Positions 23,617 to 63,156 of a DNA stretch of 64,000 nt are shown here, piece after piece (within the stretch, counting starts at the first letter, position 1; each line of letters begins with the position of its first letter). Origin of the DNA: a virus; IMG/VR virus record IMGVR_UViG_3300024350_000235, positions 1 through 64,000 of that record. One strand, given 5' to 3'. Under the pieces are notes generated by a model. That model made no database searches. It was not told the DNA's origin and saw only the letters and a list, made by a program, of their open reading frames with translations. A program made the translations under genes and the position numbers.

Positions 23617-23804
23617 TAGTCAATATAGCTAACAAGATCGGACAGGCACACGGAAAGTTTTTTCTGTGGCTGAGCAAGAAAGCTGAAAGCCATCCTTTGT
23701 GGGCAGTGGCATTGACGCTGTGGGCATTGTATGAAATCTTTGAACACATAGCACTACCGACGATTGGTGTGTTATGGGCGACAGGTGACCTCACACTGCG
23801 CTAG
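23613..23804 (+). CDS. Small membrane protein, 63 aa, running into the tRNA gene
   Basis: ATG overlaps the oxygenase stop. A basic amphipathic N-terminus is followed by a hydrophobic helix (W-A-V-A-L-T-L-W-A-L-Y) and P-T-I-G-V-L-W. Its TAG stop (23802-23804) lies inside the 5' acceptor strand of the tRNA, so the two overlap by seven bases. Function unknown. Confidence 0.6.
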   Translation: MIVNIANKIGQAHGKFFLWLSKKAESHPLWAVALTLWALYEIFEHIALPTIGVLWATGDLTLR

Positions 23805-23871
23805 AAGCTCAATGGATAGGCAGAGACTTCTAAACTCTCGATAGCAGGTTCGATTCCTGTCTGGCGCACCA
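23798..23871 (+). tRNA. Divergent tRNA, tRNA-Arg(UCU) favoured, CUA alternative
   Basis: Acceptor GCGCTAG pairs fully (one G-U) with CTGGCGC, followed by A73 and an encoded CCA. The T-arm GCAGG-TTCGATT-CCTGT is good. Oddities: A instead of T at position 8, a three-pair D stem, and an anticodon stem of four pairs with two registers. One register reads TCT (Arg; the G-G-A of the D loop gives A20, an arginine identity base). The other reads CTA, which would decode amber. Position 26 continuity favours CTA; identity bases favour Arg. I cannot settle it by eye. Confidence 0.85.
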
Positions 23872-28221: not shown

Positions 28222-29007
28222 ATGGATCCAGTGACCCTATTTGCCCTAGCCAACGGAGCGGTTAGTGCCGTTAAGGCGGGGTGTAAACTTTATAAAGATA
28301 TAAAAAGTGCTGCTGGGGACGTTAAAGACGTCCTCAAGGATCTGGACGCCCAATTCCATAAAGCCTACGAAGGCAAAGGCAAAGCACCCCCTCCCGAAGC
28401 TGTCAAGCAACTAAAAGAAGAAAAAGCCCGTGTAGTCGAGCTTAATAAAAAAGCCAACAACAATGAACAATCTAACATCTATACAGAAATCGGCAACGAG
28501 CTGGGCAAGTACTACGACAATTATTACAAATGTCAAGCGATATTCGAAGAAGAAGAACGACGCAGTCGTACTGAAGCTTACCACGGCGATGACAGTCTAG
28601 GCAAACGTGCTTTACAAAGAGTCTTGATGCGCAAACAGCTAGAGCAAATGGGCACAGAGCTGCGTGAAATTATGGTCTATCAAAGCCCACCAGAACTTGG
28701 CGCACTCTATACAGAAGTAGAAGAAATGATGAAAGTCATGGGTAAAGAACAAAAAGCTGCCATGGCTCGAGAAATACAACAATATCAAAGAGAAGAACGC
28801 AGACGACAAATTAGAAAAGAACAGTTAACCAAACAGTTTACAGTAGGTATAGGCATCATGATAGTGATATTTGTCACTATGTTCATGTTCATGTATGTCA
28901 TAGATTATAGACAAGAGCGTTTTCCTGATTTAGGTAATTGCCCTATGCCAAAAGGATCTTGGCTATACAAAAAATGGACTAATACTATTTGGGCTACCTG
29001 TGAATAA
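28222..29007 (+). CDS. Coiled-coil protein with C-terminal membrane segment, 261 aa
   Basis: The helical N-terminal region is rich in Lys and Glu. A long charged coiled coil covers roughly residues 80-205 (E-E-E-R-R-S-R; Q-R-E-E-R-R-R-Q). One transmembrane helix follows near 213-232 (I-G-I-M-I-V-I-F-V-T-M-F). A short Cys-containing tail (L-G-N-C-P-M-P; W-A-T-C-E) ends it. No signal peptide. Unknown family, possibly a virion membrane or lysis-related protein. Confidence 0.6.
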   Translation: MDPVTLFALANGAVSAVKAGCKLYKDIKSAAGDVKDVLKDLDAQFHKAYEGKGKAPPPEAVKQLKEEKARVVELNKKANNNEQSNIYTEIGNELGKYYDNYYKCQAIFEEEERRSRTEAYHGDDSLGKRALQRVLMRKQLEQMGTELREIMVYQSPPELGALYTEVEEMMKVMGKEQKAAMAREIQQYQREERRRQIRKEQLTKQFTVGIGIMIVIFVTMFMFMYVIDYRQERFPDLGNCPMPKGSWLYKKWTNTIWATCE

Positions 29008-29012
29008 AAGCT

Positions 29013-29043
29013 CTTGACAGAATATAAATAAACCTGCTACAGT
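29013..29043 (+). promoter_or_regulatory. Promoter region of the tmRNA gene
   Basis: TTGACA (29013-29018) is followed by an extended -10-like TGC-TACAGT (29035-29043). A consensus late motif TATAAATA (29023-29030) lies between them. The gene may thus be read both early and late. Confidence 0.55.
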
Positions 29044-29049
29044 GTAGCA

Positions 29050-29416
29050 CTATTGCTGTATGAAGCGATGAAAAAGGTGTTCTGGACGCCGGGGCAGTAC
29101 CGGCCAGGTCCACCAAAAGCACAGAGGTTAGAGATGATTTTTTTACTTTGGAATTGGTTTGCTTACTCGAATCAAGATTCGGGTGATCTAAGTAGACACC
29201 GTAAACACACTACATTGTATGAAGATCTCTGTATGTGATCTGTGTTTTTGATGGGCCTGAATTAGGTTCGACAGGGCAATGAGTATCAGAGTGGACAGCA
29301 GGGTAGGCGATGACCCTAAATCAAGCAAACAAACTAGACGCAAACGACAACGTTTACGCACTAGCTGCCTGAACAAGGTAAGCAGGGGCTGGTAAGCCTG
29401 GCAACAGAAACTTCCA
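29050..29416 (+). ncRNA. ssrA: Circularly permuted (two-piece) tmRNA
   Basis: The acceptor piece comes first: T-arm GCCGG-GGCAGTA-CCGGC (29088-29104), then CAGGTCC-A-CCA (to 29115). The coding piece follows from 29253 (GGGCCTGAATTAGGTTCGAC). GGGCCTG pairs with CAGGTCC across all seven acceptor positions with one G-U, as expected when the 3' part precedes the 5' part. The tag frame (29325-29372) encodes ANKLDANDNVYALAA then TGA, ending in the protease signal ALAA. The ~137-base segment between pieces would be excised. Permuted ssrA is typical of alphaproteobacteria. Confidence 0.93.
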
Positions 29417-29447
29417 AGATAGGCTACTTCGGTAGCCTATCTCTTTT
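29417..29447 (+). terminator. tmRNA terminator
   Basis: AGATAGGCTAC-TTCG-GTAGCCTATCT, a perfect 11-bp stem with a UUCG loop, followed by CTTTTAT. Confidence 0.9.
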
Positions 29448-29468
29448 ATGACAGAAAAGGAGAAAGAA

Positions 29469-29834
29469 ATGTCATATTGGGGGTATCATTTGATTTTGGA
29501 CTGCGGAGATTGTAATGTAGACGCTATCCAAGACTACAATACGATCTATAATTTTACCAAGCAGTTGGTCAAAGACATTGACATGGTAGCTTTTGGTGAA
29601 CCTCAGATCGTGAATTTTGGCACTGGTAATAAAGCCGGTTACACATTGGTACAGCTGATCGAAACCAGCAACATCTGCGCACACTTTGTTCCAGATGACG
29701 GCAAGGGTGGCAATGCTATGTATCTGGATGTGTTTTCCTGTAAAACATACGATGACCAAACTGTAATCGATTTGGTTAGAAAGTATTTTGGTGCTAAGAC
29801 TATACGTCCATCATATCTAACTAGACAGGCGTGA
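29469..29834 (+). CDS. S-adenosylmethionine decarboxylase-like protein (SpeD family)
   Basis: ATG at 29469 has AAGGAG 7 bases upstream and is preferred to 29448. The 121-aa length and G-Y-H-L-I-L-D-C-G start fit bacterial SpeD, and L-D-V-F-S-C matches the D-x-F-T-C motif. The autocleavage region reads I-E-T-S-N-I-C-A-H-F instead of the usual E-S-H-I-x-I-H-T, so the pyruvoyl-forming Ser is probably in T-S-N. SpeD makes decarboxylated AdoMet for spermidine; some phage homologues act on other amino acids. Specificity here is open. Confidence 0.72.
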   Translation: MSYWGYHLILDCGDCNVDAIQDYNTIYNFTKQLVKDIDMVAFGEPQIVNFGTGNKAGYTLVQLIETSNICAHFVPDDGKGGNAMYLDVFSCKTYDDQTVIDLVRKYFGAKTIRPSYLTRQA

Positions 29835-37514: not shown

Positions 37515-37541
37515 GTTACGGTGCCCAGGTGGGGCTGTAAC
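37515..37541 (+). promoter_or_regulatory. dnaK 5' leader hairpin (twin of the hsp20 leader)
   Basis: GTTAC-GGT-GCCC-AGGTG-GGGC-T-GTAAC: outer stem GTTAC/GTAAC, inner stem GCCC/GGGC. The hsp20 leader keeps the core but changes the outer stem to GTGCG/CGCAC, a compensatory change. A second stem GGGCA-GT-TGCCC follows at 37544-37555. CTTATTAAAGGAGAAAAC is also shared downstream. Confidence 0.7.
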
Positions 37542-37586
37542 AGGGGCAGTTGCCCAAAACTTACTCGCTTATTAAAGGAGAAAACG

Positions 37587-39476
37587 ATGAGTAAAATCAT
37601 AGGTATCGATCTAGGTACCACTAATTCATGCGTTGCTATTATCGAAAGCAACATTCCAAAAGTAATCGAAAACAGCGAGGGTGCTAGAACTACACCGTCT
37701 ATTATCGCTTATAGTGATGACGAAGTCCTAGTAGGAGCACCAGCTAAACGACAAGCTGTAACAAACCCTAAAAATACTCTATATGCTGTCAAGCGTTTGA
37801 TTGGACGCAAGTTCAAAGAAGATGCTGTACAGAAAGATATCGACTTGATGCCGTTTGAGATCATGGAATCTAAGAATGGCGATGCTTGGGTAAAGGCTAA
37901 CGGAAAAGAATTGGCTCCTCCACAAGTATCAGCAGAAGTTCTGCGCAAGATGAAAAAGACCGCAGAAGACTATCTCGGTCATGAAGTCACCCAAGCAGTT
38001 ATTACTGTACCTGCGTACTTCAACGACAGCCAACGCCAAGCTACTAAGGACGCTGGCAAGATCGCAGGACTAGAAGTACTGCGTATTATCAATGAACCAA
38101 CAGCAGCCGCACTGGCCTACGGTGTTGACAAAGCAGACAAGCGTGATCGTAAGATTGCGGTCTACGACTTAGGTGGTGGTACATTTGATATTTCAATCAT
38201 CGAAATCGCTAACGTCGACGGCGACAAGCAAATCGAAGTGTTGTCTACAAACGGTGACACATTCCTGGGTGGTGAAGACTTTGACCAACGTATCATGGAC
38301 TACCTAGTAGATGAGTTCAAAAAAGAAAGTGGTATCGATCTCAAGAAAGACACATTGGCGCTACAGCGTTTGAAAGATTCAGCTGAAAAGGCCAAGATCG
38401 AACTGTCTAGCAGTTCACAAACTGAAGTCAACTTGCCATACATCACAGCTGATGCTTCAGGTCCTAAGCATCTAAATGTCAAGATCACTCGCGCTAAGTT
38501 TGAAGCATTAGTTGACGATTTGATCAAACGTTCTCTAGAACCTTGTAAGACCGCTATGAAAGACGCGGGTGTAAGTGCCAGCGACATTGACGAAGTTATC
38601 CTAGTCGGTGGTCAGACACGTATGCCTAAAGTACAAGAAGCAGTTGAGAAACTGTTTGGTAAAGCACCACGTAAAGATGTCAATCCAGACGAAGCAGTAG
38701 CAGCTGGTGCTGCTATCCAAGGTGCCGTACTAGGTGGCGATCGCACAGACGTTCTATTGCTAGACGTTACACCATTGAGTCTTGGTATCGAAACCATGGG
38801 CGGTGTGTTTGCTAGATTGATCGACAAGAACACTACTATTCCTACCAAGAAGAGTCAGATCTTTAGCACAGCAGAAGATAATCAACCTGCTGTTACTATT
38901 AAGGTATATCAAGGCGAACGTGATTTGGTACAATACAATAAGATGTTGGGTGTGTTCAATCTAGAAGGTATCGCCCCTGCTCCTAGAGGTATTCCGCAGA
39001 TTGAAGTGACCTTTGATATCGATGCTAATGGTATCATGAACATCGGTGCTAAAGACAAAGGTACTAACAAGGAAGCCAAGATCACTATCAAAAGCGATAG
39101 CGGTCTAAGCGAATCCGAGATCCAGACGATGATCAAGGAAGCAGAAGAAAACGCCGAGAGCGATAAGAAACAACGTGAACTTATCGAAGCTCGCAACAGT
39201 GCTGAAGCTTTGATTAACTCTACCAAGAAAGATTTGGAAGAACTCAAAGATCAGTTGACAGCTGATGATATCACTAAGTTAGAAGAAGCTGTCAAGGCAG
39301 CAGAAGACTCATTAGGCTCCGACGATAAAGAAACTATCGGCGAAAAGGTCAATGAAATCTACGCTGCTTCTAAACCTCTGTTTGACGCCAAAGCCAAGAA
39401 AATGGAAGACAGCCAAAAAACAGAGGATAAGAAAGACGATAATGTGGTTGACGCAGAGTTCAAGCAGACTACATAA
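37587..39476 (+). CDS. dnaK: Hsp70 chaperone DnaK
   Basis: 629 aa, full length. ATG 37587 ([14 protein letters not shown]) has AAAGGAG 6 bases upstream. All ATPase landmarks are present (Y-D-L-G-G-G-T-F-D near 193, V-G-G-Q-T-R-M-P), the linker [11 protein letters not shown], the substrate domain and an acidic tail ending V-V-D-A-E-F. A complete, cell-like DnaK is unusual in a phage; DnaJ/GrpE are not seen here, so it probably uses host co-chaperones, or helps fold virion proteins. Confidence 0.97.
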
Positions 39477-40013: not shown

Positions 40014-40028
40014 ACCATGGAGCCTAAA

Positions 40029-40328
40029 ATGACAACTGATATTCAAATTGATCAAAAGATTAAAATCGAAATTTCACCTCCTAAGTACTGGAAAGTGATT
40101 TTTCTGAATGACGATCAAACGCCAATGGAATTCGTAATTGACGTTCTAAAAACTATTTTTAGGCACGACGAAGGCAAAGCACGTGAACTAACTTTAGAAG
40201 TACATGAATCTGGTTCTGCTGTAGCAGGTGTTTATACATATGAAATCGCAGAACACAAAGGTACTGAAGCTAGTAGAGCTGCTTTAGAAAATGGATTTCC
40301 TCTACAGATTCGTGTAGAAGAAGAATAA
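40029..40328 (+). CDS. clpS: ClpS adaptor (N-degron recognition)
   Basis: ATG 40029 has GGAG six bases upstream and is preferred to 40017. 99 aa. W-K-V-I-F-L-N-D-D-Q-T-P-M-E-F-V matches the ClpS signature, with the Asp-Asp and Met lining the N-degron pocket; a late H-K-G-T-E-A and L-Q-I-R-V-E-E complete the fold. It directs N-degron substrates to ClpAP and can block other ClpA substrates. With the phage ClpP and tmRNA it suggests control of host proteolysis. Confidence 0.92.
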   Translation: MTTDIQIDQKIKIEISPPKYWKVIFLNDDQTPMEFVIDVLKTIFRHDEGKARELTLEVHESGSAVAGVYTYEIAEHKGTEASRAALENGFPLQIRVEEE

Positions 40329-52399: not shown

Positions 52400-52552
52400 A
52401 TGAAACTTAAAACTTCTGTGATTATCTTGATATCAAGTATATTACTATCCGGCTGCGCAGGCATACGTTTCTGCGAAAAAGAAGAATCATCTAAAACTGG
52501 TTGTCGTCCTTGGGATCCTGCTACGAGATCAGGGGGGTCAGTTAGATCATGA
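52400..52552 (+). CDS. Small lipoprotein, 50 aa
   Basis: ATG at 52400 gives K-L-K-T-S-V-I-I-L-I-S-S-I-L-L-S-G-C, a signal with lipobox Cys. The mature 30 residues include two more Cys (R-F-C-E-K; G-C-R-P-W-D). Overlaps the cyclase start by four bases, so it probably is co-translated with it. Shine-Dalgarno weak. Confidence 0.6.
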   Translation: MKLKTSVIILISSILLSGCAGIRFCEKEESSKTGCRPWDPATRSGGSVRS

Positions 52553-54618
52553 AAAAGTTTCTAAAAAATATTTTATTATCGCCATGGACAGCATTGCTAA
52601 CATTGGCCCTTGTATTAAGTATAAGAATTACTGATCCTGCCTTTGTAGAAAGTATAAGACTACGTTATTTTGATACTCTGATAGCGGCCAAAGAACCGAC
52701 AGTTAATAATATCTTCACAGTAAATATCGACGAAGCAGCATTAGACAAATATGGACAGTGGCCTTTACCTAGAGCAGAATATGCCAAAATCATACGAGAT
52801 CTATACCAGAGGGGAGCAGGTCTTGTGGTACTTAATGTACTCATGCCAGAACCGGACCGTACAGGTGGTGACGGTGCGCTGGGTCAAGCTCTAAAAGAAT
52901 TTCCTGTAGTGCTAGGATCTGCTCCTAGCCAAAAGACTAAAAATACTCCTAAAGTTCCCGGCAGTGCTGTACTCAATCCAGAATGGTTAGATCAGATTGT
53001 ACAATATCCTGGATTGATAGCCAACGTTCCGCAAATAGAACAAAACGCTGCTGGAGTGGGTATCACTAATACACTGCCAGAGATAGATGGTGTTAACCGT
53101 AGGATACCATTGATAGTCGCAGTAGACGATAAATTGTATCCAGGATTATCTTTAGAAACTCTGCGTGTAGCTACAGGCAATGATACATTCCAGGTTAAAT
53201 TGTTCGAAGGCGGAGTTGAAAAAATGCGCTTGCCGGGAGATATCGGTATCATACCTACAGATAATTTAGGCCGTGTATGGATAGATTGGAGTCAAAAATC
53301 TCAGTCAATGAGTCTTTCTGATGCCATGTCTATAAAAACGTTCGAAGGTGCTATAGTAGTTTTAGGACCAACCGCAGCTGGCATAGGCAATCCTGTGCCT
53401 ACTAGTATAGGTGCTGTGTTTCCTCACGAAGTACAGGCTGCTGTCATCGGCACTATGATCAATAAAACAAACATACAGCGACCTGATTGGGCAGACGGAG
53501 CAGAGATACTTACATTGGCCTTGTTGGGATTGATAATCATTGGAATGTCGAGGTGGACTTATGTGGGTATTTTTACAACTGTTGGTGGTATCGCTGCCGT
53601 TGTTTTTGCCAGTCGTTATGGTTTCACTAACTACCAAATCTTGGGAGACGCGACGGCAAGCACAGCTGGCCTTGTGCTCGTGGCTCTTCATACTTATGGG
53701 ATTAAGTTTATAAGCGAGTTTTTACAAAAGCAACAGATCAAGAAACAATTCGGCACTTATCTTAGCCCAGACCTTGTGGCAAGACTACAACGTCAACCAG
53801 AACTACTACAGCTAGGAGGTGATAGCCGTGAACTGTCAATCATGTTTACAGATGTTAGAGGATTTACTAGTATTTCTGAACACTACGGTAAAGATGTTCA
53901 AGGACTTACTAAGATCATGAATCGTTATATGACTGCCATGACTAAAAAGATTCTAGAAAATCATGGCACGTTAGACAAGTACATCGGAGACGCACAGATG
54001 GCGTTCTGGAATGCTCCGTTGGATAATGCTAAACACGCCAAAGATGCTGTAAAGACAGCTTTAGAAATGTTAGGAAGTCTCGATGAGTTTAATAGAGAAA
54101 TCAAAGAAGAAGGTGTCCCACCTTTTGGTATGGGGCTGGGAATTAATACTGATGTTGTCGTGGTTGGCAATATGGGCAGCGATCAGCGGTTTGACTATAC
54201 TTGCCTTGGTGATGGAGTCAACCTTGCGTCAAGGTTAGAAGGACAGAGCAAGCCTTACCATGTTGCTATGGTTATAGGACCTAAGACACACGAATATGTC
54301 AAAGATGAATACTATTGCCTAGAACTAGATTGTCTAGCTGTCAAAGGCAAGCACGAAGGAGTTAATGTTTATACAGTGTTGGGTCGTATAGACGAATTAA
54401 AAATCCCATTATCAGACACACAGATGCACGCTGCCATGTTACATCTATACAGAAATCAAAACTTCGTAAGAGCTATTACATTCTGTAAAGATCTCAAAGG
54501 TCGTTTCAACGGAGCGATGGATGGGTACTACGATATGTGGATAGAACGCTGCGAGGAGATGAAAGATGCAGGACTACCAAAAGATTGGGACGGAGTATTT
54601 AGGACTAATACAAAGTAA
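52549..54618 (+). CDS. CHASE2-domain adenylate/guanylate cyclase, 689 aa
   Basis: Domains in order: an N-terminal membrane helix (~15-30); periplasmic CHASE2 sensor (~35-300, F-D-T-L-I-A-A, D-E-A-A-L-D-K-Y-G-Q-W-P); two to three membrane helices (~310-390); class III cyclase (~425-615) with I-M-F-T-D-V-R-G-F-T, D-K-Y-I-G-D-A-Q-M-A-F-W and N-L-A-S-R-L-E-G. Metal-binding Asp residues are visible. It would turn an envelope signal into cAMP/cGMP. Phage-borne cyclases of this type are uncommon; the FecR protein is a likely partner. Confidence 0.88.
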   Translation: MKKFLKNILLSPWTALLTLALVLSIRITDPAFVESIRLRYFDTLIAAKEPTVNNIFTVNIDEAALDKYGQWPLPRAEYAKIIRDLYQRGAGLVVLNVLMPEPDRTGGDGALGQALKEFPVVLGSAPSQKTKNTPKVPGSAVLNPEWLDQIVQYPGLIANVPQIEQNAAGVGITNTLPEIDGVNRRIPLIVAVDDKLYPGLSLETLRVATGNDTFQVKLFEGGVEKMRLPGDIGIIPTDNLGRVWIDWSQKSQSMSLSDAMSIKTFEGAIVVLGPTAAGIGNPVPTSIGAVFPHEVQAAVIGTMINKTNIQRPDWADGAEILTLALLGLIIIGMSRWTYVGIFTTVGGIAAVVFASRYGFTNYQILGDATASTAGLVLVALHTYGIKFISEFLQKQQIKKQFGTYLSPDLVARLQRQPELLQLGGDSRELSIMFTDVRGFTSISEHYGKDVQGLTKIMNRYMTAMTKKILENHGTLDKYIGDAQMAFWNAPLDNAKHAKDAVKTALEMLGSLDEFNREIKEEGVPPFGMGLGINTDVVVVGNMGSDQRFDYTCLGDGVNLASRLEGQSKPYHVAMVIGPKTHEYVKDEYYCLELDCLAVKGKHEGVNVYTVLGRIDELKIPLSDTQMHAAMLHLYRNQNFVRAITFCKDLKGRFNGAMDGYYDMWIERCEEMKDAGLPKDWDGVFRTNTK

Positions 54619-62583: not shown

Positions 62584-63156
62584 ATGGAGCCAAGGTTGAA
62601 AAAATTCCACGAGTTCAACGCAGAAGATCGCATTGACCTCAAACTATTAGAGAATTCGATGTATTTCCTCACGGGCGAAATCGATGAAGAAACTATCACA
62701 CCCGCTATCAAATGGATCACTTACGAGAATCTCGAATCTAAAGACAAGGTTCTGACCCTTTATATAAATTCTACGGGTGGTGATCTGTATCAAGCATTTG
62801 CTCTAATAGATGTCATGCGCTCTAGTCCACATACGATTAGAACCGTCGCTATAGGTTGCGCCATGAGCGCAGCTTTCTTGATTTTTACCAGCGGTGATAG
62901 AGGACAGAGATACGTGTCCAAAAATGCCAGTTTGATGTGTCATCAATTCACTGAAACTATGGATGCTAAATATCATGACCTTAAAGCCACTATGAGAGAA
63001 AATGATTTGTGTAATGACAAGATGCTAAACATTTTGAAAGAAGCTACAGGATTAGCACCTAGCGTGATAAAGAAGAAACTTCTAGCAGCCAGTGATGTAT
63101 ATCTCACAGTTGAAGAAGCAATTGGATTGAATATCGCAGATCATCTGTTGTCATAA
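62584..63156 (+). CDS. clpP: ClpP-like serine protease
   Basis: 190 aa, standard ClpP size. Catalytic triad visible: Ser95 in G-C-A-M-S-A-A, His120 in M-C-H-Q-F and Asp171 in [17 protein letters not shown] near 61 forms the oxyanion strand. The N-terminal loops are shorter than those that dock ClpX/ClpA, so partnering is uncertain. ATG 62584 or TTG 62596 starts it. Overlaps infA by one base. Confidence 0.9.

Follow-up and report, generated by a model that had tools for sequence, protein, structure and literature searches.

A phage-encoded, circularly permuted tmRNA gene that is probably functional and apparently mosaic

Genes for tmRNA (ssrA) have been described in a range of phages. The phage ssrA genes known in 2014 were listed together with the case of DS6A (PMC4131195), a tmRNA database of 2025 holds 79 bacteriophage sequences and includes the RF04321 model (PMC11915505), and huge phages with tmRNA and SmpB have been mentioned (PMC7162821). 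Methylophilales phage Melnitz, which infects an OM43 host, carries a two-piece ssrA with a glutamine riboswitch (PMC9004378; MZ577097.1); its authors describe this tmRNA as alpha-type and count 53 two-piece candidates among 133 unique phage tmRNA structures (PMC9004378). A permuted tmRNA in a phage is therefore not new as such (PMC9004378; PMC11915505).

The gene considered here lies in a 64,000-nucleotide stretch of DNA (the window), positions 1 to 64,000 of IMG/VR virus record IMGVR_UViG_3300024350_000235. The original prediction of a phage-encoded, circularly permuted tmRNA, made from the letters alone, is confirmed. ARAGORN calls a permuted tmRNA at 29023-29463 on the + strand with the tag ANDNVYALAA, and the Rfam model tmRNA_permuted (RF04321; gathering score 47) matches 29054-29372 (+) over its full length, positions 1-213, with 138.7 bits (E 3.8e-27). 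In cmscan, beta_tmRNA (RF01850) matches 29000-29444 with 114 bits, so that the covariance-model search named at the outset as a check came out in favour of the gene with both models. ARAGORN and Rfam place the acceptor half before the coding half, and the positions first assigned to the two halves, 29088-29115 for the acceptor half and 29253 to the stop at 29372 for the coding half, are right (Table 1). Across the permutation, the acceptor strands pair at all seven positions (GGGCCTG with CAGGTCC), as had been claimed, with G3 opposite U70 and an encoded CCA. The phage context is borne out by the full 84,371-base virus record and its gene for a virion structural protein at 101-1432 (PHROG 1645, 369 bits); the window also has genes for a tail-spike-like protein and a ribonucleotide reductase. 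An ssrA attachment-site fragment, which would have one gene end only, was ruled out, as both halves are present and the full model is matched.

Table 1. Features of the permuted tmRNA gene and its flanks, in window coordinates
Feature	Position	Strand	Basis or detail
Sigma-70-like promoter candidate	29014..29043	+	TTGACA - 18 - TACAGT, TG before second hexamer; 10/12 matches
5' part of acceptor-half RNA	29054..29083	+	Pairs with coding half at ~29290-29302 in Rfam models (RF04321, RF01850 alignments)
GGAC, T-arm and acceptor 3' strand	29084..29115	+	Sequence and Rfam alignments
T-stem; T-loop GGCAGTA	29088-29092/29100-29104; 29093-29099	+	
Acceptor 3' strand CAGGTCC; A73; CCA	29105-29111; 29112; 29113-29115	+	
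Intervening segment, 137 nt	29116..29252	+	Helix 29116-29125 with 29239-29248, then TGAT 29249-29252
Acceptor 5' strand GGGCCTG and D-loop AATTAGGTTCGACA	29253..29273 (29253-29259 and 29260-29273)	+	
Pseudoknot-1 hairpin region	29300..29317	+	GGGTAGGCGATGACCC in window, CGGTAGGCGATGACCG in 9 relatives
Tag ANDNVYALAA with stop	29340..29372	+	Tag 29340-29369; resume codon GCA 29340-29342; stop TGA 29370-29372
3' part of coding-half RNA	29373..29416	+	Within beta model match (RF01850 to 29444)
Intrinsic terminator	29417..29445	+	11-pair stem, UUCG-containing loop, T-rich tail

The window's gene shares with that of Melnitz its phage setting, its permuted order, a complete tag (ANDNYVPVDYALAA in Melnitz), the T-loop GGCAGTA and a D-loop of the same kind (AGGTTCGAC). 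Both genomes also hold an adenylate/guanylate cyclase gene; the window's, at 52549-54618, shares 39.5% identity with the Melnitz gene and 37.6% with its counterpart in Pelagibacter phage HTVC008M. Unlike the Melnitz gene, which is alpha-type and has a riboswitch (106.7 bits for the alpha-type tmRNA and 52.8 bits for the glutamine riboswitch after the gene in our re-scoring), the window's appears mosaic, and a search that recovered the positive control, L608, found no glutamine riboswitch in the window stretch (E up to 1) or at 19 other tmRNA loci. The tmRNAs of mycobacteriophages Bxz1, Wildcat and others and of Bacillus phage G are likewise phage-encoded, but they are one-piece, whereas this gene is permuted. 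The phage-encoded TLD-only RNA described for DS6A (PMC4131195) differs in another way, the window's gene having a complete coding half; an RNA of that sort, without a tag reading frame, was ruled out here because the tag frame is present.

The tag was one point on which the original prediction erred: it had given 15 residues, and the actual tag has 10, because the resume codon comes only after the residues ANKLD (29325-29339). In ARAGORN's call the tag begins with the GCA at 29340, and the beta_tmRNA alignment sets GCAAACGA against the model's GCcAACGA. The predicted ALAA end is present, so that the gene has its resume codon, tag frame, stop and degron-like end.

The gene has candidate signals for a transcript of its own. 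The promoter candidate is by itself not above chance, with one promoter-like site in the region against a shuffle mean of 1.6, and 7 of 200 mononucleotide-shuffled versions of the upstream sequence match equally well. Of 29 relatives, 4 (L039, L165, L187 and L192) have a perfect TTGACA-16/17-TATAAT upstream, in three of them at the same place; most of the others have 9-11 of 12 matches, about half of the 29 do no better than shuffles, and L183 has too little upstream sequence for the scan. Terminator-like sites, counted on both strands of the region, number 3 against a shuffle mean of 0.4. None of 100 shuffles reaches the folding stability of the whole precursor, 29049-29445 (z -6.1), whose predicted minimum-energy structure omits pseudoknots and is not to be taken literally. 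Within the precursor, AAAGCACAGA directly after the CCA pairs with TCTGTGTTTT in a helix of 10 pairs that adjoins the acceptor stem, TGAT and G1 coming next. In the 28 unique phage tmRNAs whose gap is long enough, standard pairs make up 93% of the same register at nine positions, compared with 22-72% for four adjacent registers, and most positions show several pair types, that is, covariation. Bacterial genes have this helix in a weaker form (75% of cells paired, 90 genes). The intervening segment has a median length of 84 nt in the 29 relatives and 86 nt in 62 phage genes recognized by T-loop pattern, compared with 30 nt in 136 bacterial genes.

A S-adenosylmethionine (SAM) decarboxylase-like gene (29448-29834) follows directly after the terminator; of its two possible starts, the ATG at 29448 lies beside the terminator tail, and the one at 29469, preceded by GGAG, looks likelier.

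The gene recurs widely among related phages. A scan with the neighbouring ATPase returned 72 loci in viral contigs, 61 of which were covered by the Rfam search. Among the 18 related virus contigs with a length of at least 100 kb, 17 score above the RF04321 cut-off (15 of 16, plus G041 and G059). They are not all independent: L156, L158, L159, L182 and L184 represent one tmRNA, as do L167 and L194-L196. One of the relatives, G001 (169 kb), has an ATPase 100% identical to the window's and an identical tmRNA match. In a second record set, mostly of short fragments, 19 of 50 exceeded the cut-off and both named phages fell below it; fragmentation may account for the lack of a match in most of the smaller contigs. 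The named phages that share the ATPase, Pumpernickel (56%) and vB_OspM_OC (39%), gave no RF04321 match, and none of the named phages had a near DNA match to 28900-29500. These records outline a phage group, with sizes up to 372 kb, that has a permuted tmRNA almost as a fixed trait.

Records reached via the ATPase or the SAM decarboxylase gene yielded 29 unique parsed tmRNAs, with a parser whose minimum was 6 of 7 pairs in the acceptor stem and 4 of 5 in the T-stem and which left 11 of 251 ARAGORN calls unparsed, none of them in this group. G1-C72, G2-C71 and G3-U70 are each found in 29 of 29. The next acceptor pairs vary on both sides (C-G or G-C at position 4; C-G, G-C, A-U or U-A at position 5; U-A, C-G or A-U at position 6), and T-stem positions 49-51 likewise change on both sides. 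L167 and L168, whose RF04321 matches ARAGORN missed, also have seven acceptor pairs and G3-U70. The tags were compared in a phage family of at least 120 contigs that bear the pseudoknot-1 signature, the tag start being set by position alone. Among the contigs listed, AA ends are found in 89 of 93 unique tag coding sequences, or 60 of 64 unique peptides; three contigs have no GC codon at the tag-start position and one has no stop. Among unique phage tags called by ARAGORN, whose own choice of frame may favour such ends, 68 of 71 end in AA. Together, the constancy of G3-U70 and the AA ends argue that alanine identity and a degron-like tag end are kept in the phage relatives.

From these features, we consider it probable that the phage has here a functioning two-piece ssrA gene in permuted order, with ordinary trans-translation during infection as its likeliest function; the tmRNA of the window itself is probably functional. 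We propose that it would be made as a short transcript of its own, probably by a host-type RNA polymerase, from the promoter candidate at 29014-29043 to the terminator at 29417-29445. As the covariation shows, the acceptor strands and the flanking helix pair in the precursor; by analogy with known two-piece tmRNAs, host RNases would then cut out the intervening segment, and the acceptor and coding pieces would stay joined by base pairs. Host alanyl-tRNA synthetase would charge the RNA through G3-U70, an identity element that is present. Together with host SmpB, it would enter ribosomes stalled on cut or unfinished mRNAs, add ANDNVYALAA, terminate at its own TGA and free the ribosome for further work, and a host protease that recognizes -LAA, in all likelihood ClpXP, would receive the tagged product. 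The phage would gain ribosomes while mRNAs are undergoing destruction. Transfer RNA genes in G001 fit this picture: 33 tRNA calls covering all 20 amino acids fall within 40 kb (62000-101999; L612, L613), a count in which a call at the cut between stretches may be incomplete.

SmpB (PF01668) was found in 0 of 17 phage records, which may be fragments, under a search whose controls matched in 10 of 14 genomes; the phage tmRNA therefore presumably uses the SmpB of the host, which it would have to fit, a point against the main reading. The same result counts in favour of a decoy, a phage RNA that would block host trans-translation by binding up SmpB or by sitting on stalled ribosomes. Such a role has a precedent in the TLD-only tmRNA of mycobacteriophage DS6A, a similar molecule having strongly inhibited tmRNA, perhaps by titrating SmpB (PMC4131195, PMC11915505). 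The window's gene, however, has a full coding half with resume codon, tag and stop, and its relatives keep AA-ending tags, for which a decoy would have no need; we judge this role very unlikely. Alternatively, the gene could be a passenger, a host ssrA recently picked up by imprecise excision or transduction and left unused: ssrA is a common integration site, and the authors of Melnitz weigh an exchange with a temperate phage (PMC9004378). Conservation across the phage group, with covariation and diverged tags, speaks against this, as does the mRNA-like part, whose identity with 136 bacterial permuted tmRNAs (a mostly alphaproteobacterial set with one clear beta-type gene, L444) never exceeds 0.67 but reaches 0.91 with that of a phage relative, and we regard it as highly improbable. 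Returning to trans-translation, the targets of tmRNA are stalled ribosomes and not completed proteins, and nothing here favours in particular a main use in sensing host state or in tagging and degrading host proteins as an amino-acid source, a reading of similarly slight probability. Its precedents are the amino-acid source proposed for Melnitz (PMC9004378) and the sensing of host state mentioned for huge phages (PMC7162821).

The ancestry of the gene appears to be mixed. We had considered the T-loop GGCAGTA as a deviant novelty and dropped the idea, since alphaproteobacterial permuted tmRNAs usually have this T-loop; what stays is the pairing of T-loop with D-loop and the mosaic. Both the T-loop and the D-loop of the window (AGGTTCGAC) are of the alphaproteobacterial kind. 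Across 211 unique parsed genes, many of them picked by T-loop and none by D-loop, the first D-loop position is A in 191 of 191 genes with the T-loop GGCNGTN, G in 18 of 18 with TTCGAYT and A in 2 of 2 with TGCAAYT; among the papers listed by a literature search on T-loop with D-loop in alphaproteobacterial tmRNA, none was on the subject by its title. As in alphaproteobacterial two-piece tmRNAs (RF01849), the elbow combines GGCNGTN with a D-loop in AGG. Unlike in that type, the window's mRNA-like part and 5' strand resemble those of phage relatives with the other elbow, and its tag has 10 residues and ends YALAA. With betaproteobacterial two-piece tmRNAs (RF01850) it shares overall layout and length but not the T-loop and D-loop.

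Neither lineage model is clearly better for the window's gene. In one kind of search it scores 98.8 bits with alpha_tmRNA (RF01849, cut-off 50) and 97.6 with the beta model (cut-off 84), beside the 114 bits for beta in cmscan; G007 scores 93.0 and 120.5 bits, respectively. Of 26 phage records to which both models were applied, 18 favour beta over alpha by more than 20 bits, and most other ATPase relatives do far better with beta, G059 and G062-G064 better with alpha. By blocks, the elbow is identical (1.00) to that of L160, followed at 0.89 by phages with the alpha elbow and at 0.85 by the best phage with the other elbow; the 5' strand is 0.94 identical both to L160 and to L033, which has the other elbow; and the mRNA-like part is 0.91 identical to L181 (other elbow, same tag) and 0.90 to L160. 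A tree of 126 genes (111 columns, elbow and tag left out, bacteria thinned to about one in four) sets the window next to L160 and then to L181, L162, L187 and L037, all four with the other elbow. It needs four elbow changes, two of which are forced by well-supported branches, and the window falls within no well-supported set smaller than half of the tree. Judged by sequence, then, the gene is a mosaic of an alphaproteobacterial-type elbow on a beta-like phage body, and the swap likely occurred in the phage line. Permutation joins T-arm, acceptor stem and D-arm in one contiguous block of the gene, so that a single event could exchange the whole elbow.

The original prediction had taken the permuted type as a pointer to host range and gene origin. 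This did not hold: the window's alpha and beta scores are nearly equal in the same kind of search, and the alpha-type tmRNA of Melnitz occurs in a phage of an OM43 host. The mosaic argues against inferring either host or origin from whether a phage tmRNA is of alpha or beta type, and we caution against reading the host from this. Whether host SmpB tells the two elbow types apart becomes a testable question.

Some relatives carry much longer tags. Among the contigs listed of the pseudoknot-1 family, 18 of 93 unique tag coding sequences encode at least 19 residues (21-31), whereas bacterial tags mostly have 9-15 residues and exceed 15 in 2 of 72 unique cases, both resembling doubled ANDN units. 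Tags of 21-31 residues occur in L155, L156, L161, L165, L168, L179, L183, L185, L494, L496, L507, L511, L523, L525, L541, L548, L555, L583, L587, L590, L599 and L600. Groups of them share motifs, such as ANADTFDFSAMSFTGNTV... and ANASTFEYFTVEGF..., and most end like ordinary tags; TF[DEK][FY], FTGNTV and VTVSGK.VKFSARTAK also recur. Codon differences comprise 21 synonymous and 41 non-synonymous changes in 6 pairs that are not independent. Derivation from a phage protein found no support: tblastn with the 18 long tags against the loci analysed gave 123 matches, all but one beside a tmRNA signature by a loose test, and the exception sits at a contig start.

We speculate, while considering it unlikely, that the phages of this group own a modular tmRNA, in which a single recombination would swap the elbow, the side that faces SmpB, and leave the phage mRNA-like part in place. 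The window's gene would be one such swap, and sister phages would have exchanged their tags for long peptides of 21-31 residues that either have a role as peptides or guide products to a protease other than ClpXP, possibly Lon. The long tags may resemble Lon degrons. A possible parallel is Mesoplasma, where a longer tmRNA tag is read by Lon (PMC9382460). Against the modular reading stand Melnitz, with its alpha-type elbow in a phage that nevertheless infects an OM43 host, and the small number of supported forks in the tree. The variability of the tags makes it testable where the long ones send proteins.

The phage had also been credited with clpP and clpS, as support for Clp-directed tagging. 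ClpS (PF02617) and ClpP-like (PF00574) genes each occur in 14 of 17 records. The window's clpS stands (40017-40328, 96 bits), well conserved and with NDD.TPMEFV kept; its clpP is present only as a divergent gene (62584-63156, 105 bits) whose best PHROG is 'head maturation protease' and which may encode a prohead protease. Its Ser, His and Asp align with the ClpP triad. Two ClpP-like genes each are found in G003, G004, G007 and G013, the first near ClpP (220-280 bits), the second of the divergent kind seen in the window. The pair does little for the argument that it was meant to strengthen, as ClpS promotes N-degron substrates and inhibits ClpAP degradation of ssrA-tagged ones (PMC9663308); a phage ClpS would, because of this inhibition, rather keep tagged proteins from ClpAP.

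Upstream of the tmRNA, ARAGORN reports a 'tRNA-Pyl (cta)' with a CUA anticodon at 23798-23871, and a CUA-anticodon tRNA recurs upstream of the tmRNA in relatives (L002, L004, L009, L025, L030, L035 and others). Coupling of an amber-suppressor tRNA to the tmRNA found no support. TAG shows no sign of reassignment, ending 12 of 160 long ORFs, and the frequency of back-up stops in the next five codons is not clearly raised after TAG (6 of 12) relative to TGA (27 of 57) or TAA (30 of 91). The tRNA of the window is possibly Arg(UCU) with a mismatched closing pair. Elsewhere in the window, the protein encoded at 37521-39476 shares 65% identity, along most of its length, with a gene that phage-collection records annotate as chaperone DnaK.
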